NCBI GenBank assembly: GCA_903824505.1
Contig: CAIJXG010000097.1
Span: forward strand, 1 to 42,558
Reading direction: 5' to 3'
Length of the DNA stretch: 42,558 nt
From: an uncultured Pseudomonadota bacterium
GTDB lineage: Bacteria; Pseudomonadota; Alphaproteobacteria; UBA9219
Under the pieces are notes generated by a model. That model did no database searches. It was given only the letters and a program-made list of their open reading frames with translations, and was not told where the DNA came from. Position 1 is the stretch's first letter. The number at the start of each line of letters is the position of its first letter. This document shows, piece after piece, positions 4,914 through 40,576 of this stretch. The translations under genes and the position numbers were made by a program.

Positions 4914-4980
4914 CAAGGCATTTCTTCAGAATCTGTGGAGTCTTGCCTTGTTTCGGTCGTGAAAACCCTAGAGGAAACCA

Positions 4981-7900
4981 ATGACTTTACAGAAGACACC
5001 GATGTCTCCGCCCGCCGCCACCGCGCAGACTTCCACGCCTTCTTCCTCTCGGAAGCCTGTGCCATCCCGAGATGGATCTGTTTTTGCGCCTTTCTGGATG
5101 GGGCTATGCCTGTCGGTTGCTTGGATCTGCGGCGTGTGCATCGTTTTACTTCAAACGGCCCCCGCCTCAGCTTGGGCGGGCGCGTCTTTGCTTGATTGGG
5201 CTATTGGTATTTCAGCAACGGTATCACCGGTCGCGTTGATCTGGATGGTCACGGCTTATGTGCAGCGCGCGTCGGACATTCGGTCCGTGACGGATCCTTT
5301 GCGCCGCCAATTGACGCTTATTACCGGCGAATCGGGCGCAGCCGACGCCCGAATCCGGCGCTTTAATCAGGCGATCAGGGAGCAGCTTGATTTGCTCCGC
5401 AACGTCCAGGCCATGAGTCAGGACGATATCGAAGCCATTGTCGAGCGAATCCGTCAGCATCGCGCCGAGCTGGAGCGTTTCGAGAGTTCAAGTTCCCAGC
5501 AGGTTCTAGAGATCCAAGATATCGTTCGCCACGGTATGATGCAGATCGAAAAGACGATGGAAGATAAGTTCACCATGCTGCGGATTCTGGATGGGCGCCT
5601 GCAACAGAATGGTGACGGCATCGCGCGGCAGGTTCAGGGCGTCGGCGATCAAGTCGCTCGGATGCTGCAGGAGATTGAGCAAAACGGGGCCCAAGTTGCG
5701 GATGCTCTTGATCGCGCCCAAAAAGACAGTCGGAAATTGGCGGATACGTCGCGCTTGCAAGAAGCGTCGCTGACCAATGCGGCGACTGTTGCCTCTGAAA
5801 CCTTGGGCAGCCTTTCTGGTAAGATCGATCTAAGTGTCACGCGGTTTCTAGAACGCGCCTCCAGCGCGCGCGAAGAAGCCGAACGTTTGGCGCAAGCCTT
5901 GGATGCCCAGACGCGGGCCTTGGATGATTTCAGCACCACTCTACCTGCCCGTGTCAGCGAAGCTGAAACGGTCTTGCGCGGCGTGGCCGATCGTTTGTAC
6001 GCCAGCGAACGGTTGGCTTGCGATCAAGCGGCGCGATTGGGGGATCGGCTTGCGCATCAAGTTGATTCGCTGCACGCTTTTATGGAGCGTTTTTCATCCC
6101 GCATGAACGAAATCGACGGCGGTCTCGATCGGCGCGCGGTTGATCTGAATGGCCTTGCCGCGCGGATTGGTGAAACGGCGTCCAGCTTTGTGGAGTCGTG
6201 GACGCAGACAACAACCGGACTTGAAGGCAAGACGGGAACCCTCCTCACGCGTTTCGCCGTCGCGAATGAAGAATCGCGCCGGAACGCGGAAACCGTGGCC
6301 GCGCATTTGGCCGATACGACAGGGCGCTATGAGGATGTCGTGGTGCGTATGCGCGCTCTTTCAAACGAAAGCGGATCCCAGATGAAGGAAATGACCGAAG
6401 AGGCCGCCCGTTACCTAGGCCAGTTCGAAGCGCTGGGGCAGGCGGCGAGCCAAGCGGGCGAGGAAGTGCAACAGCGCGCCGCTGTCGCTTTACAGAATTT
6501 GCAACAGGTGTTGGAACGGGTGCTGCTGGCCCGCGATGTCACGCAGGCCGTCGGCGACAAGCTGGTGAAAGATATAGCTGATGCGGTCGCCCAGAATGAA
6601 GGGCTGATCCATCGGTTGAGCGAAACCGCGCAGATGGGCGCGCGCGCTTTGGCTGTTGCAAGCGAGACGCTGGAACATCAAGAAGGTGTCTTGGTTGGCA
6701 AGATGCGCGAGGGCGAAAACGCCGTTCTCGACTCGGTGCAAAAACTTCAATACCAAGCCGAAACTGCAGGCGCGACGTTGCGGGAGCAGACGGTCAATCT
6801 GCGCTCGCTTCTCAGCGAAACTCAGACGCAATTGGCCCTCACAGATCAAAAGCTTAAGAGCTTCGCGGCGCAGGCGATTCAGCCAATTCAAACGGCTGTC
6901 AAGCAGATCGATTCCAGCGCTGAAAATGGGTTGCGCACCCTCACCCATTATGGGGAAGGCGTGACTCAGCAAGTGGGGCGTTTACAAGAGATCAACAACC
7001 GCGTCGGCGCGATGACCGAGGAAATGGGTAAAACGGCGGCTCATAGCGTCGGTCTTTTTGAAAGTCTGAGTGAGCGTTTTGCCTCTGTTCGGACGACTCA
7101 AGAAGCGGCGGCGCGGCAAACTTTGTCAGATTTTGCGACGCTCTCCGACCGTTTGCAGCGAGAAATTGGCGGGTTGGATACACATGCGTCTCAGGCGGTG
7201 GATGCCCTGCAGCAAGCGGCTTTAAAGGTCGGCGAACATTCTTATCAGATGTTGGAAAACGCGCGCAATTCAGGAGCTCAGCTGAAGGATGTCTCGGCTT
7301 TGTTGCAAGCTGAAGCCACTCAGATTCGCACGGTCTTGCGTCAACAAACCGAAGAGATTGGGCAAGATCTGGCCCGGGCTGAGCAAAAATTCACGGCTAT
7401 TGGTGAGACGATCCGTGATCGTGCGGATACGACGCTAGAGGTTCTGGATCGCGCCGCAAGCGGCTATGGCCAGATTGCGCAGCGAACGGATAAGGTTGTC
7501 GCTGAAACGCAAATCCGCGTCGAAGGGCTTCATGCCGCTTTGGCCTGTCAGGCGGATCGGATTGAAACGGATTCCGCAAAAATTGGGGAACGCGCGGGCG
7601 AAATCGCGACGCAAAGCGGGCGGGCGCTTCAGAATCTTTCTCTTTTGAACGATAAAATGTCGGTCACCCGCGACATGGTGACGGTCTCGGGCGACCATGC
7701 GCTTGAACGGCTTGAAGCTTGCGCGGCGGCCTTCCAGCGGCGCGCAACGGATTTAACGCAGCTGGCTGAAACGGCAACCAGCTCTGTAACAACGGCAGGT
7801 CAGGCTTTTGGCGAACAAGCAGGGCGTTTGGTCGATGACGGCCAAAAGGTCGACGGCCTCTTGCGCCAGCTGACGGTCACAACTACGGCCCTTGCGGATC

Positions 7901-10900
7901 AGGCCAGCCAAATCCGCATGGGAATGGAACAGCAAAACAGCCGTTTAATGTCTCATTTGGCCGATGCGGTCGCGCAGCTCGATGTTACTGGCAGTCGTTT
8001 GCAGTACGTGGTCACGGCGGCGCTGCAAGGAGCCGATCAGGCCAGTGCGCGTTTTGCCGAAATGACGGATTGGGCGTCGGAGCGTCTGGAGCTTTCCGGG
8101 CAAGATCTTCAATCTCTGTCCGAACGGGTCGACGCGAGCTTGCAAGGGCTTGGCGCGGAAGTCACGCGACAGGCGGCTTCTTTGGCTATCGTGGGGGATC
8201 AAATTGGGGCGCAGCAAAAACTGATTGCCGAAGCGAACGAACACCAACGTTTAGATATGCTTTCGCTCTTCGATCGCTTGGGGGCGGCGCATGGGCAGGC
8301 GGCAGAAATCGCTGAACGCTCGATTGCGTGTCTGTCTCAATCCCTTGCCGATATTCAGGGCCAGATGGGCCTTTTGGGTGACCGTTCACAAGAAGCGGTG
8401 GGGCATGTCCAGCAAGCGGGGATGGGATTTGCCGAACATACCGCCACACTTTTGCGGGAAGTCCAAGCGGCCGAACAGCAAACCCGCGCAGTTCTCGCGG
8501 CGACCTCCGCTCTTCAGGAGCAGGCGCGTCATTTGCGCGAGGGGCTTCAAGCTGAAAGCGCCCGCGCGACAGAAAATCTCGATGGGTTGCTGACGCGCCT
8601 GACTCAAAGTAGTCAGACGGTGCAGTTGGTGGGTGGGGATGCAAAGACTCTGCTTGCAACGCTTCATGAGGCGATGGAGACCCAATCCAGCACTTTGGGT
8701 CAAACGATGGACTCTCTTACGGCGCGTCAGACAAATCTGACTCGGTCCTTGGACGCGCAGCGTGAGGTTCTAAACGGACTTTTGAACCGTCTGGCGATCG
8801 CGCAGGATGAAACAACCCTTGTCGCGCGTCATGCCGCCGAACGGCTTGGCTCCGAAACCCAAAATATCCTGCAGAGCGCGGATCTTGTGGGCACGCGGGT
8901 GCAAAGCGCGCTCAGCGGAATCAAGGCCGCTTCGGCCAGTTTTGTGTATGAAGTGGATGCTATCACCCTTTCAGCGCAACAGGCTGAACAACGCGCGGAG
9001 GCTGTTGTCGAATCCACCTCACATTTACACACACAGATCAAAACGATTCGCATGGCGATGGATGAAGCGTGCGGCAAAACGGAAACGATCGTCGACGGTC
9101 TGCTCAAGCGCGTAACCTCCGGCAGCGATGAACTGCGCGATGTGGCCGCGATGGCCGAGACTGTTTTGGGCTCGATGCATCGCGCTATTGGCGATCAAAC
9201 GGAAGAGCTGGGCTCAACGCTTGAAGAGATCACTGAGCGTCAACGCACACTCAAGAACACGCTCGACGGCCAAGATCAGGTCCTTACCTCTTATCTCAAC
9301 AGGCTTGGCGCGGCGCAGGGGGAAACCTCTGTTCTCGCGGATCAAGCGGTTCAGACTCTTAGGGAGGTTGAAAAGGCGACAGAAACGCTGTTCACCCAAA
9401 CGGGGGCGCTCGCGCATCAGGGCCGCGATGTCGAACAGCAAATGAAGTCTTTGCTAGTGGTTGGTGCGACGACGGGCGATCAGCTGGGCCATCTACGGGA
9501 GGCGATGGAAGTCGAATCCCTTCGTGTTGTTGAGACGTTGTCTTTGGTCATCGCCGGCCTTGACGATGCGGCGAACAAAATTCGCACCGAAAGCGCGGCA
9601 GCCTCTGGCCTGTTCGATCAGACGGCTGGGCGTTTTGAGACTCTTGCGACAAGCGGCGTTTCTGCCCTGCGGGCGCAGAGCGAAATCCTTGCCCAAACCA
9701 GCGATATAGCTGAAGCGAAAATGGCCCGTGCCGAAGATCGCTTGAAGGGGCAAACACGTCTTGTCGGGGAAGTGGGGGAACAAACGGGGGCCTTGGCTTC
9801 TCGTCTTGCCGAGGGGGCTGAATTTGCGACAACACGGCTTGTGACGCTTCGGGATACGTTGGGGCAGAGCGATCACATCGGTCCCGATCTTGTCGCGGGC
9901 GTGTGCACGCAAATGGATGCGTTGAAGGGCGTTTTGAAAGACGCGCTGGCTCACTTTGCCGAAGCATCGCAGGACTCGCTGGGGCAAGTTTCCAGCGCGG
10001 CGCAGCTTCTGTCTGTTCAAAGCGATGTTTTGCGAGCGAATCTGTCCTCTTCCGAAACGGCCTTAAGTGGGGCGGCCTCTTTGTTACAGGATGAAACAAC
10101 CCGCCTGCCCGCCCTTTTGGCGCAGAGCGTGGAGGCGATCGATACGGCGACGCGGACTCTCAAAATCAATGCCGAAGGCACGGACCAGACTCTTGCAAAA
10201 ACGGCGCAGAGCTTTGAGCGCATCACAGCTACGGCGCGTGACAAGATGGCCAATGAAATGCGGCGGCTTGGGACTCTGGCAGAGGAAGCCGACAAAATTC
10301 TTGGCCATTTCAGCCAAACACTGGGGGATCAGGTCGCTGCGTTTCAGAACGGCGCGACGACTCTTTCCGGTGAACAACGGGGGCTTGCGGAACGGGCAGC
10401 GGAAAGCGTTGCGCTTTTGACGGTCGCCGGAGAAAAACTCGGCACATTGCGAACAGAGACGGTGGATACCGCCGCGCGTCTGGCGCAAGAGTTTGATTTG
10501 ATTGATCAACGCGCATCCGCTTCCAGTGAGCGACTCATTCAGGCAGGCGAGTCGCTCGCGGCCCAGACGGCGGCGATTGGCATGGCCTCGGTTCAGGCTG
10601 AAAAACAGATGCTCGGGGTTGGTCAGACACTCCGCGATCAGCTTGAGCGAATCCGCGCAGGTCTGCAGGGGCAGATCGATGATATCGCGCATGGGCTTAT
10701 GCAGATCACGACCGAATTGGATCAGTCGTCTCAGCGGTTGACGGCCTCGGCGCGGGAGGCTGTTGATTTGGCTGGGCAGGCGGGGCAGGGGCTTCTTGAC
10801 TCCGGTGGCGCGGCGACGGCTGAAATCAATGCCCGTGTGACCCAAATGCGTACGGCGATTGATTCCCTCGATGGCTATCTTGAGAATTTTGGCAAACGTC

Positions 10901-11424
10901 TGAACGGCACGTTAGATCAAATGGCGATTGCGGGAGAGGGGATCCGTCAGCAGGAAGGCGATACCATCACGCGCGTTCAGGGCGTTCTGGCCCATTTGGG
11001 AGATGTCGCGGCGCAAATTAACGAAACCCGAACCCTGTCGGATGGAGCCAGTGACCATGCGATCCAACGCTTGAATGATGTCGTTGAGGCTGTTCGCTCG
11101 CATATGACCAGCCTGACGGCAGGCGCGCAGACGGCAGCCGGCGTGGTGCGGGGTGTCGGACAGCTTTATGCCGAACAGACCCAATCCGTTACAAAAGGCG
11201 TAGGCGAGGCGCATAAACAAGTCCTCGGCATGAACGAAAGCCTTGGCGAGATGCAGCAACGGGCGGATCGCATGCGGGTGGCGCTGAAGCTTCAAAGCGA
11301 TGAGCTGATGGGGTCTTTGCGTCAGATCTTGCTTCAGCTTGAAGAAACGGGGGATGGGATCAGCGAGACGGTCGATACCGTCCTGCACCAACGCGCGGCC
11401 GAAGCCTTGCAGCATATGGTTTGA
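4981..11424 (+). CDS. Giant membrane-anchored coiled-coil protein (2147 aa)
   Basis: I recognise no catalytic domain. Residues 1-30 are Ser/Pro/Thr-rich. Two hydrophobic helices follow at about 35-55 (MGLCLSVAWICGVCIVLL) and 62-84 (WAIGISATVSPVALIWMVTAYV). Everything from about 100 to 2147 is heptad-like, rich in Ala, Gln, Leu, Glu and Thr, nearly free of Pro and Cys, and should be a very long cytoplasmic coiled coil. Residues 1185-1288 and 1356-1461 are clearly related, so part of it arose by duplication of a unit of about 171 residues. The start is ATG 4981, preceded by GAGGA. Two N-terminal membrane helices plus a long coiled coil recall the polar organiser TipN of Caulobacter (about 880 aa), and a CtrA box lies upstream. 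The TipN comparison is architectural only, not shown homology. Chemoreceptor-like helix bundles could look similar, but the MCP hairpin tip is absent. Confidence 0.85.
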   Translation: MTLQKTPMSPPAATAQTSTPSSSRKPVPSRDGSVFAPFWMGLCLSVAWICGVCIVLLQTAPASAWAGASLLDWAIGISATVSPVALIWMVTAYVQRASDIRSVTDPLRRQLTLITGESGAADARIRRFNQAIREQLDLLRNVQAMSQDDIEAIVERIRQHRAELERFESSSSQQVLEIQDIVRHGMMQIEKTMEDKFTMLRILDGRLQQNGDGIARQVQGVGDQVARMLQEIEQNGAQVADALDRAQKDSRKLADTSRLQEASLTNAATVASETLGSLSGKIDLSVTRFLERASSAREEAERLAQALDAQTRALDDFSTTLPARVSEAETVLRGVADRLYASERLACDQAARLGDRLAHQVDSLHAFMERFSSRMNEIDGGLDRRAVDLNGLAARIGETASSFVESWTQTTTGLEGKTGTLLTRFAVANEESRRNAETVAAHLADTTGRYEDVVVRMRALSNESGSQMKEMTEEAARYLGQFEALGQAASQAGEEVQQRAAVALQNLQQVLERVLLARDVTQAVGDKLVKDIADAVAQNEGLIHRLSETAQMGARALAVASETLEHQEGVLVGKMREGENAVLDSVQKLQYQAETAGATLREQTVNLRSLLSETQTQLALTDQKLKSFAAQAIQPIQTAVKQIDSSAENGLRTLTHYGEGVTQQVGRLQEINNRVGAMTEEMGKTAAHSVGLFESLSERFASVRTTQEAAARQTLSDFATLSDRLQREIGGLDTHASQAVDALQQAALKVGEHSYQMLENARNSGAQLKDVSALLQAEATQIRTVLRQQTEEIGQDLARAEQKFTAIGETIRDRADTTLEVLDRAASGYGQIAQRTDKVVAETQIRVEGLHAALACQADRIETDSAKIGERAGEIATQSGRALQNLSLLNDKMSVTRDMVTVSGDHALERLEACAAAFQRRATDLTQLAETATSSVTTAGQAFGEQAGRLVDDGQKVDGLLRQLTVTTTALADQASQIRMGMEQQNSRLMSHLADAVAQLDVTGSRLQYVVTAALQGADQASARFAEMTDWASERLELSGQDLQSLSERVDASLQGLGAEVTRQAASLAIVGDQIGAQQKLIAEANEHQRLDMLSLFDRLGAAHGQAAEIAERSIACLSQSLADIQGQMGLLGDRSQEAVGHVQQAGMGFAEHTATLLREVQAAEQQTRAVLAATSALQEQARHLREGLQAESARATENLDGLLTRLTQSSQTVQLVGGDAKTLLATLHEAMETQSSTLGQTMDSLTARQTNLTRSLDAQREVLNGLLNRLAIAQDETTLVARHAAERLGSETQNILQSADLVGTRVQSALSGIKAASASFVYEVDAITLSAQQAEQRAEAVVESTSHLHTQIKTIRMAMDEACGKTETIVDGLLKRVTSGSDELRDVAAMAETVLGSMHRAIGDQTEELGSTLEEITERQRTLKNTLDGQDQVLTSYLNRLGAAQGETSVLADQAVQTLREVEKATETLFTQTGALAHQGRDVEQQMKSLLVVGATTGDQLGHLREAMEVESLRVVETLSLVIAGLDDAANKIRTESAAASGLFDQTAGRFETLATSGVSALRAQSEILAQTSDIAEAKMARAEDRLKGQTRLVGEVGEQTGALASRLAEGAEFATTRLVTLRDTLGQSDHIGPDLVAGVCTQMDALKGVLKDALAHFAEASQDSLGQVSSAAQLLSVQSDVLRANLSSSETALSGAASLLQDETTRLPALLAQSVEAIDTATRTLKINAEGTDQTLAKTAQSFERITATARDKMANEMRRLGTLAEEADKILGHFSQTLGDQVAAFQNGATTLSGEQRGLAERAAESVALLTVAGEKLGTLRTETVDTAARLAQEFDLIDQRASASSERLIQAGESLAAQTAAIGMASVQAEKQMLGVGQTLRDQLERIRAGLQGQIDDIAHGLMQITTELDQSSQRLTASAREAVDLAGQAGQGLLDSGGAATAEINARVTQMRTAIDSLDGYLENFGKRLNGTLDQMAIAGEGIRQQEGDTITRVQGVLAHLGDVAAQINETRTLSDGASDHAIQRLNDVVEAVRSHMTSLTAGAQTAAGVVRGVGQLYAEQTQSVTKGVGEAHKQVLGMNESLGEMQQRADRMRVALKLQSDELMGSLRQILLQLEETGDGISETVDTVLHQRAAEALQHMV

Positions 11425-11609: not shown

Positions 11610-12143
11610 TTACGCCCTTTTTCCCTCTGCTGCCGTCTCCAAAAGGGCGAGTAGGCCTTTCAGAAGATCGATCGGCTGAGGGGGGCAGCCTTTAATATGC
11701 AGATCCACGGGAATGGTGGAGGCAACGCCTCCCAGATGGGCATAATTTTCGGTGAACACGCCACAGCCTGCCGCGCAATCCCCCACGGCGACAATCCATT
11801 TGGGATCGGGTGTGACCTCATAGGCTCGCTTGACCGCAAATTCCATGTTTTTAGTGACAACTCCGGTGACCATCAGCACGTCCGCATGTTTGGGCGAGGC
11901 AACGAATTTGATCCCAAAACGCTCTAGATCATAAAAGGCGTTGTTCAGGGCGTGGATTTCCAGCTCGCAGCCATTGCAGGACCCTGCATCGACCTCGCGG
12001 ATCGTCAGCGAACGGCCTAGCTTGGCGCGGGATCTTTCATTCAAAGCCTTGGCAAGTTCTGCCAGCGCGGCCTCATCCGGTTGAGGGGCTGGAATCGTGA
12101 CGGGCTTACTCAGAAGCGATTGGGCGAGAAGTTTGGCGGTCAT
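11610..12143 (-). CDS. NuoB/HyfI-like iron-sulfur (small) subunit of a hydrogenase-related complex
   Basis: This 177-residue protein belongs to the family of complex I NuoB and group 4 NiFe-hydrogenase small subunits, which carry the [4Fe-4S] cluster next to the large subunit. The ligand pattern is complete: C56 and C59 in SCNGCELEIH, C123 in GDCAAGCGVF, and C153 in KGCPPQP. GVVTKNM and the GCPP loop match the family. The start at 12143 has AAGGA just upstream, although the frame runs 13 codons further. The ATG lies 11 bp after the stop of the large subunit, so the two are one transcript. It resembles HyfI/HycG more than NuoB of a classical nuo operon. The missing membrane and NuoF/G-like partners must be encoded elsewhere or be lost. 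Confidence 0.85.
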   Translation of the reverse strand: MTAKLLAQSLLSKPVTIPAPQPDEAALAELAKALNERSRAKLGRSLTIREVDAGSCNGCELEIHALNNAFYDLERFGIKFVASPKHADVLMVTGVVTKNMEFAVKRAYEVTPDPKWIVAVGDCAAGCGVFTENYAHLGGVASTIPVDLHIKGCPPQPIDLLKGLLALLETAAEGKRA

Positions 12144-12154
12144 GGGAGTCTTCC

Positions 12155-13636
12155 TTATAAATCCTGTCCCGCATAGGAACAATTGAAGGATTTGTTACAG
12201 AGCGGAAAATCCGCAACAATATTGCCTTTGATGGCGTTTTCAAGCAGCGGCCATTGGAACCATGACGGATCGCGCGGATGACAGCGCTCAATCTTTCCAT
12301 CCGTGATCCGCAGCCAGATAAACACATCGCCCCGGAAGGCTTCGACCAGCGCCGCGCCTTCCTGCGTTTCGGCAGGAGGGGACTCAGGCAAACTAAACGC
12401 GATGCCGCCTTCGGGAATATGGTTCAGAATTTGGCGGATCAGCGAAAGGCTCTGCCGGATTTCACAGATGCGGATCCAAACCCGCGCATTCACGTCGCCT
12501 GTGTTACGGAGAGGGATTTCGAAATCTAGCCTGTCATAAGGCGGGTAGGGGGTGTTCTTGCGGGAATCGAATTGGCGGCCTGAGGCGCGGCCCACATGCC
12601 CGCCTGCGCCATACAACGTGACAAGCTCGGCCGAGACTGTACCCGTCGTATCGGTTCGATCTCGTAGCGAAGCTGTGTTGTCGTAAAGATCGACCAAAAT
12701 CTCGAAGTGTTTTTCTGTTTTCTGGGCCCAAGCGAGGATTTTTTCAGCTGAATCGCGAGTCAAATCGACTTTGACGCCGCCCGGAACGATCCGGTCCATC
12801 ATCAAACGATGTCCAAAACACTCAAAAGCCAGACGCAGAGTCTCTTCCCTTAAAATCCCGCAATGGGCAAGCATAACCGAGAAAGCCGCGTCATTACAAA
12901 TCGCGCCGATATCCCCCAGATGATTAGCGATTCGCTCGATTTCCGCAAAAAGGGCGCGCAGGAAATGCGCCCGTTGCGGCACGTCAAGACTCCACGCAGC
13001 TTCAACTGCGCGGGCATAGGCAAGACTATAGGCAACCGTGCTGTCGCCCGAAAGCCGCGCGGCGATTTTCGCGCCGCCTGAAATGTCTTGGCCTTCAAAA
13101 AGCTTCTCAGCGCCCCTGTGCATATAGCCCAGACGTTCTTCCAGACGCACAACAGTTTCCCCGTTGGCGGTGAAGCGAAAATGGCCGGGCTCGATAATGC
13201 CGGCATGGATGGGGCCGACGGGAATTTGGTGTAAGCCCTCTCCCTCGACGGGAAGGAAGGTATAAGGCGGCGGCGGATCGGTATGGGGCTTGTTGTCTGT
13301 CAAAGGAGCTTTCACGCCCCAGACTCCGTGATCTTGCCACGGGCGTGGATCTGGACAGCCGACAGGCGTAAAGCCGCACATATCGGTGATGCTGCGCTCC
13401 AGACGCAGTGCCGGAAGATAATGCTTCGCGATTGACGGAAATGTGCCGTCTGGAACAGGTAAATGAGCGACAGAGGATTTCCCAGAAACGGGATCCAGCA
13501 ACGCCATCGACACATGCCCGCGCCCTCCCCACAAAGAGGTCAGGACATATTTTCCGCGCGCGAGATCGCGTCCCAGCCCTTCCCAGCTTGCCACATCAAC
13601 CGCGTTTGGCTCCCAAGGAGTGTGAAGATTTGTCAT
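12155..13636 (-). CDS. NuoCD/HyfG-like large subunit lacking the NiFe-binding cysteines
   Basis: This 493-residue fusion has a NuoC-like domain (about 1-130) and a 49-kDa/NiFe large-subunit domain (about 131-493). Family motifs include GPIHAGIIEPGHF (141-153), MHRGAEK (172-178) and GDIGAICNDAAF. A catalytic NiFe enzyme has CxxC after the RGxE motif and DPCxxC near the end. Here the first site reads RLSGDST (194-200), so both Cys are gone. The second reads FNCSYAG, so only C486 remains. This matches the energy-converting-hydrogenase-related (Ehr) and complex I-like proteins, not an active hydrogenase. The gene is first in its unit, and repeat copy B lies directly upstream where hyfB-F-like membrane genes usually sit. 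The redox partner is unknown. Confidence 0.85.
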   Translation of the reverse strand: MTNLHTPWEPNAVDVASWEGLGRDLARGKYVLTSLWGGRGHVSMALLDPVSGKSSVAHLPVPDGTFPSIAKHYLPALRLERSITDMCGFTPVGCPDPRPWQDHGVWGVKAPLTDNKPHTDPPPPYTFLPVEGEGLHQIPVGPIHAGIIEPGHFRFTANGETVVRLEERLGYMHRGAEKLFEGQDISGGAKIAARLSGDSTVAYSLAYARAVEAAWSLDVPQRAHFLRALFAEIERIANHLGDIGAICNDAAFSVMLAHCGILREETLRLAFECFGHRLMMDRIVPGGVKVDLTRDSAEKILAWAQKTEKHFEILVDLYDNTASLRDRTDTTGTVSAELVTLYGAGGHVGRASGRQFDSRKNTPYPPYDRLDFEIPLRNTGDVNARVWIRICEIRQSLSLIRQILNHIPEGGIAFSLPESPPAETQEGAALVEAFRGDVFIWLRITDGKIERCHPRDPSWFQWPLLENAIKGNIVADFPLCNKSFNCSYAGQDL

Positions 13637-31023: not shown

Positions 31024-31608
31024 ATGAACGCTTCCTCCTTCACCTTCACCCCCGAAAATCTTGCCCGCGTGGACAGGATTATCGCTCAGTACCCTCTGGG
31101 CAAACAGGCCAGCGCGGTCATGCCCCTCTTAGATCTTGCCCAACGGCAAAGCGGTGGATGGGTGCCGCAAGAAGCGCTCGATTATGTTGCGGATTTTCTC
31201 AAAATGCCGCGCATCGATGTGTATGAGGTCGCGAGCTTCTATACGATGTTTAACCTGAAGCCCGTCGGGACAAACCTCGTTCAGGTTTGCACGACGACCC
31301 CATGCTGGCTGCGCGGATCGGAGGGCATTGTCGGTGCCTGTAAAAAGAAACTGGGAATCGATGTCGGCGAGACAACACCGGACGGACAGTTTACGCTGAT
31401 CGAAGTCGAATGTTTGGGCGCCTGTGTCAATGCTCCGATGGTTCAGATCAATGAGTCGTATTATGAAGATCTAACGCCTGAGGGGATTGAAAAAATCATT
31501 GACGCGCTGAAAGCAGGGCAGAAACCTGTGGCTGGATCTCAAACAGGCCGTGCGGGATCTTGTGCTCAAAGCGGCTCAACAAGTCTTGATTTAGGAAACA
31601 CTCCATAA
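31024..31608 (+). CDS. nuoE: NADH-quinone oxidoreductase subunit E (24 kDa)
   Basis: This 194-residue thioredoxin-like [2Fe-2S] protein would work with NuoF in the NADH-oxidising module of complex I. Cluster ligands are C89 and C94 (CTTTPC) and C130 and C134 (CLGAC). [14 protein letters not shown] and VNAPMVQIN match the family. The last 35 residues ([16 protein letters not shown]) are a low-complexity tail. The other nuo genes are not in the window: nuoF, its near-constant partner, is missing and the next gene is mnmA on the opposite strand. It could serve complex I encoded elsewhere or another NAD-linked dehydrogenase. Confidence 0.9.
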
Positions 31609-31655: not shown

Positions 31656-32805
31656 AAATCCACCCCCCACCCAGCACGCGGTTTTCTTGATAAATAACCC
31701 CCGCCTGTCCGGGCGCAACACCGAAGGCGGGCATGTCGAGCGTCAAATGGCCTTCTAATCCTGCGCTCCTCGTGAAATGGGCGGGCAGAGGCGGTTGCGC
31801 TGAGCGAAGCTTGACCTGCACCTCTATTCCTTCCGGCGGCACGGGATCGCCTAGCCAGTTTATGTCCCGCAGCGTGACCTTTTGTTGGGCCAGAGACGCG
31901 CGAGGACCGACAACGACTTGTTTTGTCGACGCATCAATACGGATCACATAAAGCGGTTCATTCTGTTCGCCAGAACGGTCAGAAAGATTAAGTCCTTTCC
32001 TTTGGCCGACGGTGAAATGAATGATCCCTTCATGCTGGCCCAGAACCGTGCCTGTTTCATCCACGATCTCGCCCGCCTCAATAGCGCCCGGGCGCAGCCG
32101 TGCAACGACGCTGGCGTAATCGCCATTCGGGACAAAGCAAATATCCTGACTGTCCGGTTTTGTGGCCACGGGCAGGCCGAATCGTTCTGCCAGCGCCCGC
32201 GTTTGCGTTTTCGCCTGCATATCCCCCAAAGGAAAACGCAGAAAATCCAGCTGTTCTTGCGTGGTCGCGAACAAGAAATAGCTTTGGTCCTTGCTGTCAT
32301 CGGCGGCGCGGTGAAGCTCTGCTCCTTTCGCCCCCATGACCCGCCGGACATAATGACCGGTTGCCAGAGCCTCGGCCCCCAATTCTCGGGCCATAGACAA
32401 AAGATCGCGGAATTTAACCCGTTGGTTACAGAGCACACAGGGTAGAGGAGTCTCGCCGCGTGTATAGCTGTCCGCAAAATCCTCCATCACGCTTTGGGAG
32501 AAGCGGCTTTCGTAATCCAGCACATAATGGGGAATGCCAAGCTTGTCTGCCACCTGCCGCGCGTCGTAAATATCCTGCCCGGCGCAACAGGCCCCTTTGC
32601 GGGCTATCGCCGCGCCATGATCATACAGCTGCAAGGTGACGCCGACGACATCATAGCCTTGCTCGGCAAGCAAAGCGGCCGTGACAGAGCTATCCACCCC
32701 GCCCGACATGGCGACAACGATGCGCGTATCTCGCGGCGGTTTGGAAAAACAAAGATCGATTTGAATTCTCCTAAAATTTTGACCCCTTAGGTCGTGATGC
32801 GCCAC
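31648..32805 (-). CDS. mnmA: tRNA-specific 2-thiouridylase MnmA
   Basis: This protein of up to 385 residues forms 2-thiouridine at U34 of Lys, Glu and Gln tRNAs. The PP-loop is [10 protein letters not shown] (32-41), the nucleophile is C123 in PCVLCNQ, and the persulfide Cys is C223 in [11 protein letters not shown]. The C-terminal barrel is complete. The only early in-frame start is GTG 32805, which overlaps the end of lpxC by 19 bp. A strong AGGAG at 32768-32772 instead sits seven bases before an ATC at 32758-32760, so translation may begin at residue 16. The body of the gene is certain; the start is not. Confidence 0.93.
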
Positions 32806-33656
32806 GCTTCGGGCTGGGCAAAAAGGGCGGTTAGAAGCTGATTATTCAGCGCATGCCCCGTACAAGCAGCATCAAAGCGTCCGCGCAGAGGAAGCCCCGC
32901 CAGCGCTAAATCGCCGATAGCGTCCAGAACCTTGTGGCGGGCAAATTCATTACGATAGCGCAGACCTTCGGCGTTCATAATCTCCTCGCCCTTGATCACA
33001 ATCGCATTGTCCAGCGAGCCGCCCCGCGCGAGCCCCATTTGGCGGAGTTGATCCACCTCCTCAAAAAAGCCAAAGGTGCGGGCGCGGCTGATCTCATTCT
33101 TAAATGTGGCTGCCGACAAAGTCACGGCGCAGCTTTGCTGCCGAATAGGGGCGCGGTCAAAAGAGATCGAAACGCTATAAGAAGTTTCAGTTGCGGGAGA
33201 CAAGGTCGCGCGTTTGCCCCCCTGTGTCACGCTTATGGGCTTAAGAATTTCAATCACGCGACGGGGCGCGTTTTGTTGACTGACACCCGCAACTTCCAAA
33301 AGAAACACAAAAGATTCCGCGCTTCCATCCATCAACGGCACTTCCGGTCCGTCAATTTCAATTTCCGCATTGTCGATGCCGCAAGCGGCAAGGGCGGCCA
33401 TCAAATGTTCGACTGTGCCCACGCTGCCCCCATGATCATTCCCGATCACCGTGCAAAGTTTTGTATCTATGACCTGATCCCACTGCGCCCGAATTTTGCG
33501 CGCCCCATTCACCAAATCGGTACGGATAAAAACAATGCCCGTATCCGCCGGAGCGGGATTAAGGCGCAGCGTAATCTCTTGCCCCGAATGCAGGCCGATG
33601 CCCGAACAGGCGACGGAACGGGCCAAACTTTGTTGAAGAAGGGAAGGTGCAGACAT
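32787..33656 (-). CDS. lpxC: UDP-3-O-acyl-N-acetylglucosamine deacetylase LpxC
   Basis: This 289-residue zinc deacetylase catalyses the committed step of lipid A synthesis. [21 protein letters not shown] opens the first domain. The zinc ligand H84 lies in [17 protein letters not shown], and [14 protein letters not shown] follows. The second domain shows [18 protein letters not shown] and [12 protein letters not shown] 33656 fits the family length; ATG 33677 is an alternative. In most gammaproteobacteria, and in many alphaproteobacteria, lpxC follows ftsZ. Here it is 3 kb away, on the same strand but separated by four other genes, and it runs into mnmA. Confidence 0.94.
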
Positions 33657-33762
33657 GGGAAGACCAAGCTCATACAAAAAGAACAGCCTGACCCTAAAAC
33701 GCGCCCCAAGGAAACCAAAGACAATCCTTCTTACAGATTGTTACGAGCAGAAATGTTTGACA

Positions 33763-33792
33763 TATACTCGGTTTCCTTGAAAAGCCGAGTAT
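33763..33792 (-). repeat. Short derivative of the palindromic repeat (hairpin)
   Basis: This 30-bp hairpin has arms ATACTCGG (33764-33771) and CCGAGTAT (33785-33792) around TTTCCTTGAAAAG. It matches the right arm of the long copies closed on itself. It lies between lpxC and the endonuclease-family gene, near the lpxC promoter. Confidence 0.7.
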
Positions 33793-33815
33793 TCGATAAA
33801 AAAAGGGCATATCCT

Positions 33816-34619
33816 TTACAATAAGTGAGGCCAAAGCATTTTTGGACGCTCCAAATCGACGGTCAGGATGGGGTGATCGGAAAGACCTTTTTCGACGCTC
33901 GTTTTTTCCAACAGAAACCGCCGATCACAGAGAATATGGTCGATTTGGCCGTTTATTTCCTCTGGGAAATAGTCGTTCATGCTGAAGCGAACCGTATTTC
34001 TCAGAGAGGTGGGGCCGATAGAGTTGGGGAAAAGCTCTTCAATTGGATTGGCCTTGTTGTTGAAATCACCGCACACGATCAAGGGGCGGTCGGAGCCAGT
34101 CAGAAGCTGCTCGATTTCCGAAAGGACGGTTGGAAATTCTTGAATGCGGCGCTTGAATTTATGGAACGGAAAACCGTGCAGATTAATAATCTCAACACTC
34201 CCTAAAGGGGTTATGATGTCACAAAGCTGCGCGTGTTTGTCGTGCAGCGCGTAAGTTTTTCCGTTGTGCCATCTGGTTGTAAGCTGCGGGTTGGAAAATG
34301 TCACAACGCGGTAGTTTTGAATCTTCCACCGGCTGAGTACCGACAGGCCGTACCATTTTCCTTCATTCAACCAAGATTGATCTCCGATGACGGAATGGGA
34401 AAAAGAAAGGCCGAGCTGTTTGGAAAGGGCGTCAATGAAATAACTTTGCCCCGTATCCGTCTCAAACGGCACTTCGGCGAGGCATAAAATATCGGGATTT
34501 ATGCGCTTGAAAACATTCACAAACGCATCAGGATTGTAAAAGTCAGCCGGATTGCCTGTCCCATGCACTTCGTCAAAAAGCGCGATGCACTGCATGGCGT
34601 TATTGAAGGTAACCCGCAC
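33816..34619 (-). CDS. Endonuclease/exonuclease/phosphatase-family hydrolase
   Basis: This 267-residue protein has the DNase I-like fold. Motifs are NNAMQ near the N-terminus, DILCLAEV (catalytic Glu), INLHGFPFHKFKRRIQE, CGDFNN, GQIDHILC, and LSDHPILTVDL with the catalytic His. The family includes nucleases, inositol and sphingolipid phosphatases, and no membrane segment or signal peptide is seen. The substrate is unknown. I prefer GTG 34619, which has AGGGAG upstream and starts at the first strand (VRVTF). ATG 34658 would add 13 charged residues with a poor ribosome site. It is divergent from holA. Confidence 0.78.
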   Translation of the reverse strand: MRVTFNNAMQCIALFDEVHGTGNPADFYNPDAFVNVFKRINPDILCLAEVPFETDTGQSYFIDALSKQLGLSFSHSVIGDQSWLNEGKWYGLSVLSRWKIQNYRVVTFSNPQLTTRWHNGKTYALHDKHAQLCDIITPLGSVEIINLHGFPFHKFKRRIQEFPTVLSEIEQLLTGSDRPLIVCGDFNNKANPIEELFPNSIGPTSLRNTVRFSMNDYFPEEINGQIDHILCDRRFLLEKTSVEKGLSDHPILTVDLERPKMLWPHLL

Positions 34620-34736
34620 GGCTTTCTCCCTTTGTTTTGGCTCTTCGCTGTGTCCCATAAAGCGCGGGTAGATTCAACCCCTTGCCTTTTGTCCTTAACT
34701 GTGGACGGACGGATGCAGCCTCTTTAAACTGCGTTT

Positions 34737-35750
34737 ATGAAACTTCCGCCCGCGCGACTTGCTGCGTTTCTTGCCAAACCTGATCCTGCCGTGCGGGTGG
34801 TTGTGGTCTATGGTCCCGACGCAGGGTTGGTGCGCGAGCGGGCGCGGAATCTGGGCACAAGTGCGGTGGGGGATTTAAACGATCCCTTTCGCGTTGCAGC
34901 TCTGACGGGCGCGAGTGTTGTCGAAGATCCTGCGCGGCTGTTCGATGAAATGGCCTCTCTGAGTCTGGGCGGCGGCAAGCGGCTGGTCCGTTTGCAAAAT
35001 CCCAGCGAGACTCTGACACCCATTCTCAGCCGTTTGCTGGACTCGATGCCCCAGACGGATAGTTTGCTGGTGATCGAAGCGGGGGATTTGGACAAAAGAT
35101 CAAAACTGCGCGCGCTGGCGGAATCTGAAAATGCGCTGATCGCGTCGATTCCCTGTTACGCCGAAGATGCGGCGGCCCGTCAGCGGACTATTGCGGCTTT
35201 GTTGGAGTCGGAACAGATTCGTGCGCCTCGTGAGATTGTGGCGCTTTTAGGCGATATTTTGCCTTCTGATCGGCTGGCTTTACGCAGCGAGATCGAAAAA
35301 TTCGCGCTTTACGTCGGCAAAGGCAATGCCGCCACGGCTGAGGATATTCATGCAGTCTTGCAAGATGCGGGTGCGGCCGAGCTGGATGATCTTGTCTTTG
35401 CCGTTGGCGCGGGCGAGCCGAAACGGGTCACGCATTTGTTGGATCGTCTCTTTGCCGAACAAACCGCGCCCGTGGCAATTCTTCGCGCCGCGCAGCGGCA
35501 TTTCTTGCGCCTAAGCTGGGCCCGTGCGCAGCTGGATAGCGGCCTTAGCGCCACAGATGCCGTCAAACGGCTTCAGCCGCCTGTTTTCTGGAAACATGAA
35601 AGCGCCATGGCGGCGCAAGTCCGGCGCTGGAGCCGCGCGCGTTCGGACACCGCCTTGCGGCGTCTGTATGATGCGGAGGCTGCCGTCAAACGCACAGGCA
35701 CGCCCGATGAAACGCTTTGCGCTCAGACTTTGTTGGGGCTGGCCGCATGA
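34737..35750 (+). CDS. holA: DNA polymerase III subunit delta
   Basis: This 337-residue clamp-loader subunit opens the sliding clamp. VVVYGPDAGLVRERA (17-33) begins the AAA+-like domain. The rest is FDEMASLSLGGGKRLVRL, LLVIEAGDLDKRSKLRALAE and the collar helices (VAILRAAQRHFLRLSWARAQLDSG). It lacks a working P-loop, as is normal for delta. The start ATG 34737 has no strong site. Its stop overlaps the amidase start by four bases (ATGA), so the two are coupled. LptE, its frequent neighbour, is absent. Confidence 0.9.
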   Translation: MKLPPARLAAFLAKPDPAVRVVVVYGPDAGLVRERARNLGTSAVGDLNDPFRVAALTGASVVEDPARLFDEMASLSLGGGKRLVRLQNPSETLTPILSRLLDSMPQTDSLLVIEAGDLDKRSKLRALAESENALIASIPCYAEDAAARQRTIAALLESEQIRAPREIVALLGDILPSDRLALRSEIEKFALYVGKGNAATAEDIHAVLQDAGAAELDDLVFAVGAGEPKRVTHLLDRLFAEQTAPVAILRAAQRHFLRLSWARAQLDSGLSATDAVKRLQPPVFWKHESAMAAQVRRWSRARSDTALRRLYDAEAAVKRTGTPDETLCAQTLLGLAA

Positions 35751-36439
35751 GCCTTTCGCCCAATTTCAACGCGCGCGCCCCTTCTGTGCCGTTGCAGTAT
35801 ATTGTGTTGCATTATACGGGGATGGAAACGCCGCACGCGGCGCTAGAGCGTTTGAGGGATCCGGCGGCCCAGGTCAGCGCGCATTATATGATCGATGAAG
35901 CCGGAGCCTTGTTTTCCTTAGTTCCCGAAAGCGAACGGGCGTGGCATGCGGGGGCGAGTTTTTGGCGGGAGGAGACGGATCTGAACAGCGCCTCGCTGGG
36001 GATTGAGCTGGTTAATCCGGGTCACGTCTTCGGCTATCGCCCGTTTCCGCACGCGCAGATCGCCTCTTTGAAGATTTTGCTTCACGAGATCATCGCCCGT
36101 CACGGGTTTGACTCCGCGAGATGTCTTTTGGCCCATAGCGATATCGCGCCCTGTCGCAAAGAAGATCCGGGGGAGTTTTTTCCGTGGGAAGAACTGGCGC
36201 GCGAAGGGCTTGGCTTTTGGCCTGTGCCCACGGATTTCACTCCCGAAAAAGAAGGGGAATGTGAGTCTTTGTTGCGACAGATCGGCTATGACCTGCACAA
36301 TCCTAAGGCCGCGCTTTTGGCCTTTCAGCGCCGCTATGCGCCCCAGTGTTTAACAGGAGTCAGTGACCCCGACACGCTGGCGCGTTTACGGGCGGTGGCG
36401 CTTTTTCTTTCGACAGGACTCCGCGCAACGCTCCGTTAA
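35747..36439 (+). CDS. AmpD-like N-acetylmuramoyl-L-alanine amidase
   Basis: This 230-residue zinc amidase cuts the bond between muramic acid and L-Ala in peptidoglycan or its recycling fragments. Zinc ligands are H22 in [10 protein letters not shown]130 in [16 protein letters not shown] and D140. WHAGASFW is the usual substrate-side motif. The last 60 residues resemble a peptidoglycan-binding helical domain ([23 protein letters not shown]). No signal peptide is seen, which points to a cytoplasmic recycling enzyme rather than an autolysin. It is translationally coupled to holA, and its stop overlaps the ftsZ stop on the other strand. Confidence 0.9.
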
Positions 36440-38247
36440 TGATTGTTCTGCCGACGTAGGAAGGCGGGGATGTCCAGCGCTTCCTCAGTCTGATCGATCG
36501 AGAGGGTCGAGGGATTCGTGCCGCCTTGTCCTGTATGTTCCGTGACCAACTCGTCCGTCGGGTGCATCTCGGTCGTGTCGTCCTCGTGATGTTGAGCCGA
36601 GGGGCGCACCATGCCAAATCCCGTGATGCGTGTAAAAAGGGACTCAGCGCGACGCTGACGGCGCTGCTCCGATCCTGTTTGGGGGGGCTGCGTTTGGGCT
36701 GGTTGTGCCTGAGGCATGAGCTGGGTCATGCGCATTTCCGCGCCCTGTGCCGCCAAAGGCGGAGAGGCCGGACGCGTCGTGCGTGGCGTGGTAGAAGGGG
36801 GCGTTTGGCTTGGCGCGTTCTGGGAAGCGGAAGCCTGAGGCCCGACATAGGAAGAGGTTTCAGCCGGTTTGCGCCAGCTTTCGGTTGCGCCCCAGCCTGC
36901 GCCGGATGACGGGGATTCTGTGCTTTGTGGGGTTGCGGTGGGCGTTTCTGTATCGCTTCTCTCGGAGGCTGAAACAGGGGGTGAAACAGATTCTAGCCCC
37001 TTTTGATCTATTGGCGAATCAATCTTTGCGGGGGAAGAAACAACAGGCTGTGTCGCCATCCCTTGAGGCATAGAAAAATAAGAGACCGGCGCTCCCGTAG
37101 GAGGGGCGGAAACCGGACGCATCCAAGAAGAAGATGCCGTGGGGTGGGAAGCGGATTGAGGTGCCGCCTGAACAGGAGGCGAGACGGGTGAGGGGGTCTG
37201 TGCCTGCGGCGCTGTTTGCTTAGGTGTCGGGCGGATATGGGATGTGCCGCTGCCGCTTGACGCGCTCGTCCGCGTGGATGTCGCCGCGTCAATGCCTGTC
37301 GCGATCACCGAGACGCGGATCGAGCCGTCCATATTTTCGCCCAGTGTCGATCCGACCTTGATTTGCGCTTCGGGATCGACTTCTTCGCGGATGCGGTTGG
37401 CGGCCTGATCCACTTCGAACAGAGTCATGTCCAGCCCGCCCGTGATATTGATCAACACGCCACGCGCGCCCTTCATCGACACGTCGTCCAAAAGTGGGTT
37501 GGAAATGGCGGCCTCGGCTGCACGGACCGCGCGATTTTCACCTTCCGCCTCGCCCGTGCCCATCATGGCTTTGCCCATTTCGCCCATGACGGTTTTCACA
37601 TCCGCGAAATCCAAATTCATAAAGCCCGGCATGACCATCAAATCCGTGATGCCGCGCACACCGCAATGCAGGACTTCGTCGGCCAAACGGAACGCTTCTG
37701 CAAAAGTCGTGCGCTCATTTGCGATACGGAACAGGTTTTGATTCGGAATGACGATCAGCGTGTCCACATATTGTTGCAGCTCATTCAGTCCTGCCTCGGC
37801 CTGACGCATGCGGCTGTTACCTTCGAAATGGAAGGGCTTGGTGACAACGCCGACGGTCAAAATCCCCGCCTCGCGGGCCACACGCGCAATCACAGGCGCG
37901 GCACCCGTCCCCGTGCCGCCCCCCATGCCCGCAGTGACGAACAGCATGTCCGAGCCTTCCAGCGCGGCCATGATGTCGCCCAATTGTTCTTCTGCTGCCG
38001 CGCGGCCGATATCGGATTTCGAGCCTGCGCCCAAACCGCGCGAAAGATTGATGCCCAACTGAATTTTGCGGCCCGCCAGCGACATAGCCAGCGCTTGCGA
38101 ATCCGTATTTGCCGCAATGAAGTCGCAACCTTCCAGCTGACAACGGATCATATTATTGATGGCGTTGCCCCCTGCGCCGCCTACGCCGATAACCGTCAAG
38201 CGTGGACGCAGATTGTGTTCAGGGTCAACCATCGACAAATTGATCAT
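36436..38247 (-). CDS. ftsZ: Cell division protein FtsZ with long C-terminal linker
   Basis: This 603-residue tubulin-like GTPase forms the division ring. The GTP signature [10 protein letters not shown] lies at 109-118, [11 protein letters not shown] at 19-29, and the T7 loop at [11 protein letters not shown]. Residues about 330-585 are a disordered linker rich in Pro, Ser, Gln and Thr. The end is the conserved peptide [10 protein letters not shown] that binds FtsA and other partners. E. coli FtsZ is 383 residues; long linkers are common in alphaproteobacteria. ATG 38247 follows GGAG. The stop overlaps the convergent amidase stop by 4 bp. ftsZ is divergent from mraZ instead of lying at the end of the cluster after ftsQA. 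Confidence 0.97.
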
Positions 38248-38622
38248 GGAGTTTCTCCGGATAGGGGGCGCACGAAAAGAGGCAAACGAATCACTCCGCA
38301 CATTTCAGCTCTTTCTCTTGATTCGCGCAACAAAAACATGCGGCAAGATGCGGGAATTTCAGGCAGTTAGGAACAAAAGCAGCCCGATTAAGCGAAAGAT
38401 AAAGCCTATCCAAAAAGTTACGGGGTGAAGCGGATGTTTTGGATGAGCGGCGAGTTGATGTGGTGAGCAGCCAACTGAAAAAATATGAACTAGAGGCGGG
38501 AAGGGGCTTGAATTCCCTTGACGGCCCACCCTGTCCCATGATATCCCAAGACATCCCACGGAAGCTAAGACACCCTTTGAAGGGCGCCCCGCAACCGGCT
38601 GGATGTGGATTCTGGGGCATAC
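38248..38622. other. Divergent control region between ftsZ and mraZ
   Basis: This 375-bp region must hold promoters for both units. On the mraZ side it has TTGACG at 38518-38523, followed by the MraZ box array. On the ftsZ side I see a GGAG ribosome site and one GANTC site (38290), but no perfect CtrA site. Confidence 0.65.
38524..38558 (+). promoter_or_regulatory. MraZ operator (direct repeats)
   Basis: TCCCA occurs at 38534, 38544 and 38554 with exactly 5-bp spacers, and a near copy GCCCA is in phase at 38524. On the other strand this reads TGGGA-N5-TGGGA-N5-TGGGA, the arrangement bound by the MraZ octamer in E. coli. The boxes start right after a TTGACG -35 (38518-38523), so binding should repress mraZ. 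Confidence 0.85.
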
Positions 38623-39102
38623 ATGGGTGTTTTTCTCTCCAGCTTCGTCAACAAGATTGACAAAAAAGGGCGCGTGTCCGTGCCTGCGCCTTTTCGCGCG
38701 GTGCTGGGCGCGGAAGCAGCCGGAATCGTCGTGTTTCCCTCCCTGCAGCATGAGGCGCTCGAAGGCTGTTCGACCGCGCATCTGGAATTGCTGAGCCAAA
38801 GTCTGGAAAAACAAGATTTGCCGTCTGATGTCTTTGACTTGATCGAGACGACGATTTTCGGCGGCTCGGTCTCGCTGACCTTTGATGGAGAGGGGCGCAT
38901 TACCTTGCCCCAACATCTGACGATGTCCATTGGCGTGACAGAAGAAGTCGCTTTTGTCGGACGCCGCAAGACATTCCAGCTTTGGAATCCTGCAAAACTC
39001 GTTGCCCACGAAACGGCCGCGCGCGCCAAAGCCAAAGCCCAAGAAATTTCGCTCAGCAAAATCATCGCGGCTGTCGCGCATGGGGCAGGGGGTGCGGGAT
39101 GA
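38623..39102 (+). CDS. mraZ: Transcriptional regulator MraZ
   Basis: This 159-residue protein has two SpoVT/AbrB-like DNA-binding domains. The first reads [18 protein letters not shown] (8-25) and the second [17 protein letters not shown]. MraZ represses its own operon, the first genes of the division and cell-wall cluster. ATG 38623 matches alphaproteobacterial homologues ([13 protein letters not shown]); an upstream GTG has no support. Three perfect TCCCA boxes lie 65-90 bp upstream. The stop overlaps the rsmH start (ATGA). Confidence 0.96.
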
Positions 39103-40064
39103 CCCAAGCGATCCGCGCTCATGTCCCTGTTTTGCGTCATGAAGCCGTGGCGGCGCTTGCGCCGCATGCAGGCGGAACCTATGTAGACGGAACCTTCGGG
39201 CGGGGCGGTTATACGCAGACACTTTTGGACTCCGCGCCGGATCTTCAAGTCTTTGCCATCGACCGCGACCCTGAGGCCATTGCCGCCGGACAGAAAATGG
39301 TGGCCGCCTACGCGCCGCGCCTGACGCTTCTGCATGGCCCGTTCGGCGCGATGGATGTTTTGCTGGCGGGGCAATCCGTGACACAGGTGGATGGGATCGT
39401 CTTGGATATCGGCGTGTCTTCGCCTCAACTCGATGATCCTGCGCGGGGTTTTTCGTTTGGTGCGGACGGCCCCTTGGATATGCGGATGAGCCAAAGCGGC
39501 CCCAGCGCGGCAGATATCGTGAATGAAATGCCGGAGCGCGACCTCGCGGATTTAATCTTTACGTTGGGCGAGGAACGCTGCGCGCGCCGTGTGGCCCATG
39601 CGATTATTGAAGCGCGCGCGCTTCAGCCTTTGACCCGGACAACCGAGCTGGCTACGCTGATTCGCAAAGTGGTGCCCCGTGCGCGGGATGGAATCGACCC
39701 CGCGACTCGTAGTTTCCAAGCCTTACGCATTTATGTGAATGACGAGCTTGGGGAATTGAGGCGTGCGCTTGAGGCGGCCCTGCGGTTGCTCAAACCTCAG
39801 GGGCGTTTGGCGGTTGTGTGTTTTCACTCGCTTGAAGATCGCGTTGTGAAGGAGTTTATGCGCTATCAAGCAGGCGGTCTGTCTGTCTCGCGCCACAGAC
39901 CCGCCAATGACGTGCCTCCGCCTTGTTTGCGGATTCTGACGAAAAAGCCTGTAAGCCCAAGCGAGACCGAGTGCGCCGTGAATCCACGCGCCCGTTCCGC
40001 CCGTTTGCGCGCAGCTGAACGTACCGATGCGCCCGTGCCTGTGCACAGAAAGGAAGGCGCATGA
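39099..40064 (+). CDS. rsmH: 16S rRNA (cytosine(1402)-N(4))-methyltransferase RsmH
   Basis: This 321-residue enzyme (also called MraW) methylates C1402 in the ribosomal P site. The SAM loop is [16 protein letters not shown], and [19 protein letters not shown] and [15 protein letters not shown] are family signatures. [13 protein letters not shown] opens the protein. The start is ATG 39099, coupled to mraZ; the stop overlaps the ftsL start by 4 bp. Confidence 0.97.
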
Positions 40065-40576
40065 CGAAACCCTCTGTTGCTCTTCTATTCTGGCTTGGGC
40101 TTATTATTCTTTCCAGTGTTGGGCTCTATCATACCAGCGATCAGGTAACGTCGTTACAAAGCCAGCTTAAAAGCCTCAAGACGCAGATTGATTCCGAACA
40201 GGAAACCATGCGCGTGCGTAAGGCCGAATGGGTTTATCTGGCTAATCCGGCACGGATCGAAGCCGATGCGCGGAAATGCTTGGCGCTGCAGCCAACGCCA
40301 CCTGCGCGTGTGGTGACGTTGGACGGGATGGCACCGCTTTTGGCTATGAGGGACGGGACCAAACTGCCTGTCGCCGCCCCCCCTGCCGTTCAGCTGGCTG
40401 AAGCCACACCTCCGGCTTCTTACGCGCCTGTTCGGCAAAGTCGTGAACGCGTCGTAAGGCCCCTGTCAACAGAGGGCAGGATTAACGACCACATCACTCT
40501 TCAGCATGGCGCGGCGGTTCAGGCCTCGGCAGATCCCATCGGCGCGCTGATTGGGTCCTTGAATTTCCGCCCATGA
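40061..40576 (+). CDS. ftsL: Cell division protein FtsL
   Basis: This 171-residue bitopic protein has one membrane helix (about 6-24, [18 protein letters not shown]) followed by a heptad region ([21 protein letters not shown]) that should pair with FtsB. Conserved [17 protein letters not shown] follows. The C-terminal 80 residues are a variable periplasmic tail rich in Ala and Pro. It is recognised mainly from its place between rsmH and ftsI and its topology, as FtsL diverges quickly. Confidence 0.88.

Follow-up and report, generated by a model that had tools for sequence, protein, structure and literature searches.

The giant protein encoded at positions 4981–11424 of the window (the whole 42,558-nucleotide stretch analysed here, from an uncultured alphaproteobacterium) is real and conserved. 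Its relatives belong to the order Micavibrionales (Micavibrio-like; the name is taken from public titles), and by analogy with studied systems the Micavibrionales protein is probably an inner-membrane-anchored cytoplasmic rod that scaffolds a cell pole, a version of the GPR/RgsE/TipN family. An alphaproteobacteria-wide family of inner-membrane-anchored cytoplasmic scaffolds probably includes both GPR/RgsE and TipN. In size, the window protein is nearer to GPR (2115 aa) and RgsE (2089 aa) than to TipN; these two, the closest studied proteins by size, were not named in the first-pass annotation, which had likened the layout to that of TipN.

An intact gene for a giant membrane-anchored protein

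The gene is a single reading frame with no internal stops as read from the sequence, and it fills 15% of the window, as the first-pass annotation had stated. Its start is in line with that of relatives (MTLQKTP in the window, MALQKTP in relatives). The features of the gene and its product are as follows.

4970–4975, + strand: likely ribosome-binding site, purine-rich AGAGGA, read from the sequence
4981–11424, + strand: giant two-TM (transmembrane) coiled-coil gene, one ORF with an ATG start, 2147 aa
4981–5085, + strand: proline-rich N-terminal tail, aa 1–35, from the sequence; predicted to be cytoplasmic from positive charges beside the TM pair
5086–5157, + strand: transmembrane helix 1, aa 36–59; hydropathy, AlphaFold helix and family hairpin profile (E 8e-11)
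5188–5262, + strand: transmembrane helix 2, aa 70–94, running on into the coil; hydropathy, AlphaFold model and hairpin profile
5257–5394, + strand: most conserved block following TM2, AYVQRASDIRSVTDPLRRQLTLITGESGAADARIRRFNQAIREQL, ~aa 93–138; alignment A1 and conservation profile
5296–11310, + strand: uninterrupted coil with a 25-residue/7-turn hydrophobic seam, aa 106–2110; periodicity and autocorrelation
7993–9360, + strand: tandem 171-residue units, ~2.7 copies, aa 1005–1460; ungapped offset scan, and indels of 171, 342 and 513 residues
11299–11358, + strand: C-terminal helix motif, conserved and specific to the order, DELMGSLRQILLQLEETGDG, aa 2107–2126; conservation profile

The loop between the two hydrophobic helices has no positive charge, while K/R residues lie on both outer flanks, and by the positive-inside rule both ends of the protein would thus be cytoplasmic. 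The charge distribution, together with fusion data for RgsE, points to the inner membrane and its cytoplasmic side. Structure prediction, one of the checks proposed beforehand, gave a low-confidence AlphaFold model with helices at aa 35–59 and 70–142, the second entering the coil. The protein has 14 prolines, just four of them beyond residue 106, and searches of its whole length against Pfam, NCBIfam and PHROG returned weak coil-type matches only.

Interruption of the frame in relatives had been named as an observation that would count against the protein; the frames proved intact, with complete homologs in the order spanning 1878–2537 aa. A homolog is present in all 24 order relatives that are at least 90% complete, conserved at ~20–60% identity, and the window's own genome (1.9 Mb) holds one copy. 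A dN/dS of 0.064 for one pair of relatives, 94% identical, indicates purifying selection. In many relatives mutS, recognised from sequence, lies directly upstream of the giant gene; in the window a poly(A) polymerase-type gene adjoins it instead, and the surroundings are housekeeping.

Other genes of the window are recorded here for completeness. Directly downstream and convergent with the giant gene lie genes for a NuoB-like (190 aa) and a NuoD-like (493 aa) protein (11610–13636, − strand). The NuoD-like protein scores far under the NCBI NuoD cut-offs and also gives weak matches to hydrogenase large-subunit profiles, and a NuoE gene stands apart from the pair at 31024–31608. LpxC, FtsZ (621 aa, unusually long), FtsL and a penicillin-binding transpeptidase are encoded at 32787–42366, at least 21 kb from the giant gene.

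Relationship to GPR, RgsE and TipN

The profile search for a relationship to polarity proteins, likewise proposed beforehand, linked the window protein both to a GPR-like and to a TipN-like protein. A profile of the membrane hairpin alone, built with no Micavibrionales rows, matched the window protein (E 8e-11), the GPR-like L147 (E 4e-8) and the TipN-like L179 (E 5e-5), whereas control ORFs, unrelated and from the same loci, gave E-values of 1 or worse; the match to L180 from Caulobacteraceae was marginal (E 0.013). With the class-only N-terminal profile, domain E-values were 3e-26 for the window protein, 8e-20 for L179 and 8e-17 for L180. With the N-terminal alignment of 195 residues, 94 of 289 sampled alphaproteobacteria gave a match, the matching ORFs being ~260–2500 aa long, and the hairpin-bearing relatives are single-copy proteins in many alphaproteobacteria. 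Four family members (L166, L167, L168 and L169) lie near an apparent MCE/MlaD-type lipid-transport cluster, as judged from sequence.

L147 has a GPR-like layout (1985 aa, Pro-rich N-terminus, two TMs, long coil, Pro-rich region) and matches a C-terminal domain profile built without it (E 5e-16). Three Caulobacteraceae genomes were recognised by their MreB, 94–96% identical to 4cze, which we take to be Caulobacter MreB, and two of the three encode ORFs of 838 aa (L179) and 1005 aa (L180) with two TMs plus coil. They match the C-terminal domain at E 6e-6 and 2e-5, and we infer from size, layout and genome, not from name, that they are TipN orthologs. Since a hairpin profile without the order finds both the window protein and the TipN-like Caulobacteraceae protein, homology of the window protein to TipN is supported at the family level and is probable. 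The likeness to TipN seen in the first-pass annotation is upheld at this level; at the other end of the protein the C-terminal domain is missing.

Loss of the C-terminal domain in Micavibrionales

Family members outside the order have a common C-terminal domain of ~110 residues (alignment A2: L086, L090, L102 and others), detected in 12 of the 13 outside-order genomes tested and absent from G122, which by N-terminal score is the outside lineage nearest to the order. AlphaFold predicts a confident all-helical fold (mean pLDDT 90, pTM 0.85), to which no Pfam name could be attached; neither a fold search with the model nor a sequence profile of the domain gave a significant PDB match. The domain is absent from the window protein and was found nowhere in any of the 33 order genomes searched; the idea that another locus of these genomes encodes it is not supported by the same search. 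As this domain, common to the rest of the family, is missing, the window protein is not just a longer TipN.

In members of the order, a terminal helix motif, (D/E)L(M/L/I)xSLxQI(L/I)xQL, replaces the globular domain, and it stands out even in family f2, where the upstream sequence has turned Pro-rich. MreB was found in the window's own genome and in 30 of the 33 order genomes. PopZ was also found in the own genome; a search across the class with a low-complexity PopZ fragment as query gave no match. The Micavibrionales branch may be regarded as a natural deletion experiment, in which anchor and rod are kept, the C-terminal domain is dropped and MreB coexists, and the parts serving polarity and those serving polar growth therefore become separable as a question.

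Proposed role as a polar scaffold

The two-helix hairpin would anchor one end of the protein in the inner membrane, and the remainder would form a stiff and nearly straight coiled coil, whose helices probably run parallel and presumably form an oligomer. Fully extended, at 0.15 nm per residue, it would measure ~300 nm, a large share of a cell of 0.5–1.5 micrometres. The conserved end segment that stands in place of the C-terminal domain most likely serves to recruit a partner at the end remote from the membrane. The examples of GPR, RgsE and TipN suggest that the protein may gather at a pole or at the site of division and there organise the growth of the envelope, the partitioning of the chromosome or the polar flagellum. 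The window protein need not itself be an elongation organiser, since MreB is present, and with MreB retained we favour a role in polarity, division or organelle positioning over one as an elongation machine.

Several observations speak against a scaffold of this kind. The window protein is without the C-terminal domain, yet Agrobacterium needs the C-terminal region of GPR, deletion of whose last 221 or 332 residues blocked function (PMC8262873). In Rhizobiales, Rgs proteins and MreB are mutually exclusive and polar growth proceeds without MreB (PMC7327166), whereas most order genomes have MreB. Distant RgsE homologs have been reported in Rhodospirillales and Emcibacterales, and the authors suggested a different role for those beyond Rhizobiales (PMC7327166).

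A 25-residue lattice and modules of 171 residues

The earlier description of a 2147-residue protein that has two membrane helices at its N-terminus followed by ~2000 residues of coil was borne out by the intact ORF, by hydropathy and by a hydrophobic-period power of 124 in the coil, where 60 shuffles reached at most 11.5. For 90% of residues 101–2147 the local amplitude is above the 99% null level. The hydrophobic period is 3.57, unlike the 3.5 residues of the classical heptad, and autocorrelation is best at a lag of 25 residues, or seven turns, with a lattice phase that drifts slowly along the coil and is never lost. The other order members measured have periods of 3.565–3.576, mostly as one dominant line (power 83–184, shuffle maxima 8.9–12.8). 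By the same method, the coil of the chemoreceptor (MCP) encoded in the window has a period of 3.51 and that of L147 one of 3.66; the family members L086–L089, L091, L092, L148 and L149 lie at ~3.62–3.63 (near 29/8), not 3.57. A seam of 3.57 would make the rod nearly straight and its left-handed pitch long. With its regularity, the 25/7 lattice is also attractive as a template, supplied by nature, for coiled-coil rods of this type and of very great length.

Length varies within this lattice. The commonest indels in pairwise alignments are of 11, 171, 22 and 7 residues, those of 342 and 29 being frequent too, and a unit of 171 residues corresponds to ~48 turns. An ungapped offset scan detected ~2.7 copies of this unit in the window protein and ~5 in L032 and L036; self-BLAST of the giant protein had returned no repeats. 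Other expanded coil units are found in L046 (76 and 40 residues, within residues 1167–1574) and L050 (186 residues, within residues 479–1347).

These observations bear on a second reading, in which the protein is a length-setting ruler or tether whose rod bridges a fixed distance between inner membrane and partner, tuned by 171-residue modules (~25 nm each) and hendecads. Coherence of the lattice across ~2000 residues, the range in copy number of the tandem units and the preferred indel sizes all fit such a device. Total length, however, differs by species over the whole span given above, which leaves no single fixed distance. Of 334 indels, 51% lie no more than 0.15 turn from the 25/7 lattice, against 28% expected from random lengths, a statistic in which the pairs are non-independent and periodic sequence biases gap placement; moreover, any coil should show phase-keeping indels. 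A stricter test of anchor-to-anchor distances gave weak significance for the 25/7 lattice (p 0.04) and a better fit for 3.5, and is for this reason not relied on. We consider a ruler unlikely and prefer the polar scaffold.

Other explanations

The anchor may also serve another job, peculiar to these predatory or epibiotic bacteria, in which a cytoplasmic tether holds the nucleoid, the chemoreceptor array or the pole used for prey attachment. The order-wide loss of the C-terminal domain with a new conserved end motif, the retention of MreB, and the single polar flagellum and prey attachment of Micavibrio would suit this idea. Against it, the giant gene adjoins housekeeping genes and linked predation genes were not seen, and the anchor is common to many other alphaproteobacteria, so that a tether of this sort appears rather improbable beside a polar scaffold.

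For GPR, an apolipoprotein-like array of lipid-binding helices that organises the membrane has been proposed, and apolipoprotein domains are annotated in GPR and RgsE (PMC8262873, PMC7327166). The window protein has a weak match to PF01442 (E 8e-4, 19.6 bits) that lies under the curated cut-off of 90, a difference from GPR and RgsE. This profile is unspecific, matching 7 of 14 control genomes, Bacillus and Thermotoga included, none over the cut-off, and a scan across the class placed no alphaproteobacterium over it. The hydrophobic stripe of the window protein is narrow, covering about one third of the helix surface and nearly devoid of aromatics. The core of the seam is 60–66% LIVMF with 0–1% charge, and K/R residues peak on one side of it and D/E on the opposite side; this narrow, uncharged core with oppositely charged flanks favours a coiled coil over a broad lipid-binding face, and a lipid-binding array is considered very unlikely.

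A chemoreceptor, phage tape-measure or surface protein, relationships that the first-pass annotation had listed as refuting, can be dismissed almost entirely: despite a chemoreceptor gene at 812–2749 in the window and a very weak PHROG tape-measure match (E 0.0066), Pfam, NCBIfam and PHROG gave no convincing match of these kinds, and the giant ORF has no MCP signalling domain, no signal peptide by inspection, a coil period different from that of the MCP, conservation across the order and housekeeping rather than phage neighbours.

Comparison with studied systems

Scy and FilP of Streptomyces and the hendecad coiled-coil families are bacterial examples of polar scaffolds, or of long coils, with repeats other than the heptad; the hendecad families have reportedly been surveyed by Martinez-Goikoetxea and Lupas in 2023. 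Their repeat lengths differ from that of the window protein, and we know of no two-TM anchor in Scy or FilP.

GPR of Agrobacterium tumefaciens (Atu1348) forms a growth-pole ring on which rod shape depends, and has two N-terminal TMs, a cytoplasmic bulk and a continuous helix of ~1700 aa (PMC8262873). The window protein resembles it in size, in its ~2000-residue coil and two N-terminal TMs, and in a hairpin that is homologous by way of L147. It differs in its 3.57 period and missing domain, where the GPR-like L147 has a hendecad-like period, Pro-rich ends and the C-terminal domain. RgsE of Sinorhizobium meliloti (SMc00190), a GPR homolog, is a membrane-anchored, polar protein with a cytoplasmic coil, and its depletion and overproduction phenotypes resemble those of GPR (PMC7327166). 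The window protein is of near-equal size, with a predicted membrane anchor and coil; the C-terminal domain is gone, and, as a difference from both GPR and RgsE, MreB is present in its genome.

TipN, the new-pole marker of Caulobacter, has 882 aa and disordered ends (PMC13170164); the window protein is, as first claimed, more than twice as long. The two have in common the N-terminal module, two TMs and coil, as seen in L179 and L180, which differ from the window protein in carrying the C-terminal domain (E 3e-5) and in a weak period of 3.58–3.61. Localisation to the new pole and roles involving ParA and the flagellum are features of TipN. A bolder proposal, which we advance tentatively, is that GPR, RgsE and TipN form one ancient family defined by hairpin, non-heptad coil and C-terminal domain, from which the Micavibrionales made a domain-less, length-tunable rod on a 25-residue lattice, with expandable 171-residue modules and a new end motif, beside MreB. 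GPR and TipN are still termed 'analogous' in a 2026 paper (PMC13170164); if both have the hairpin and the C-terminal domain in common, they would be homologs, which would suggest a single ancestral polar scaffold for the class.
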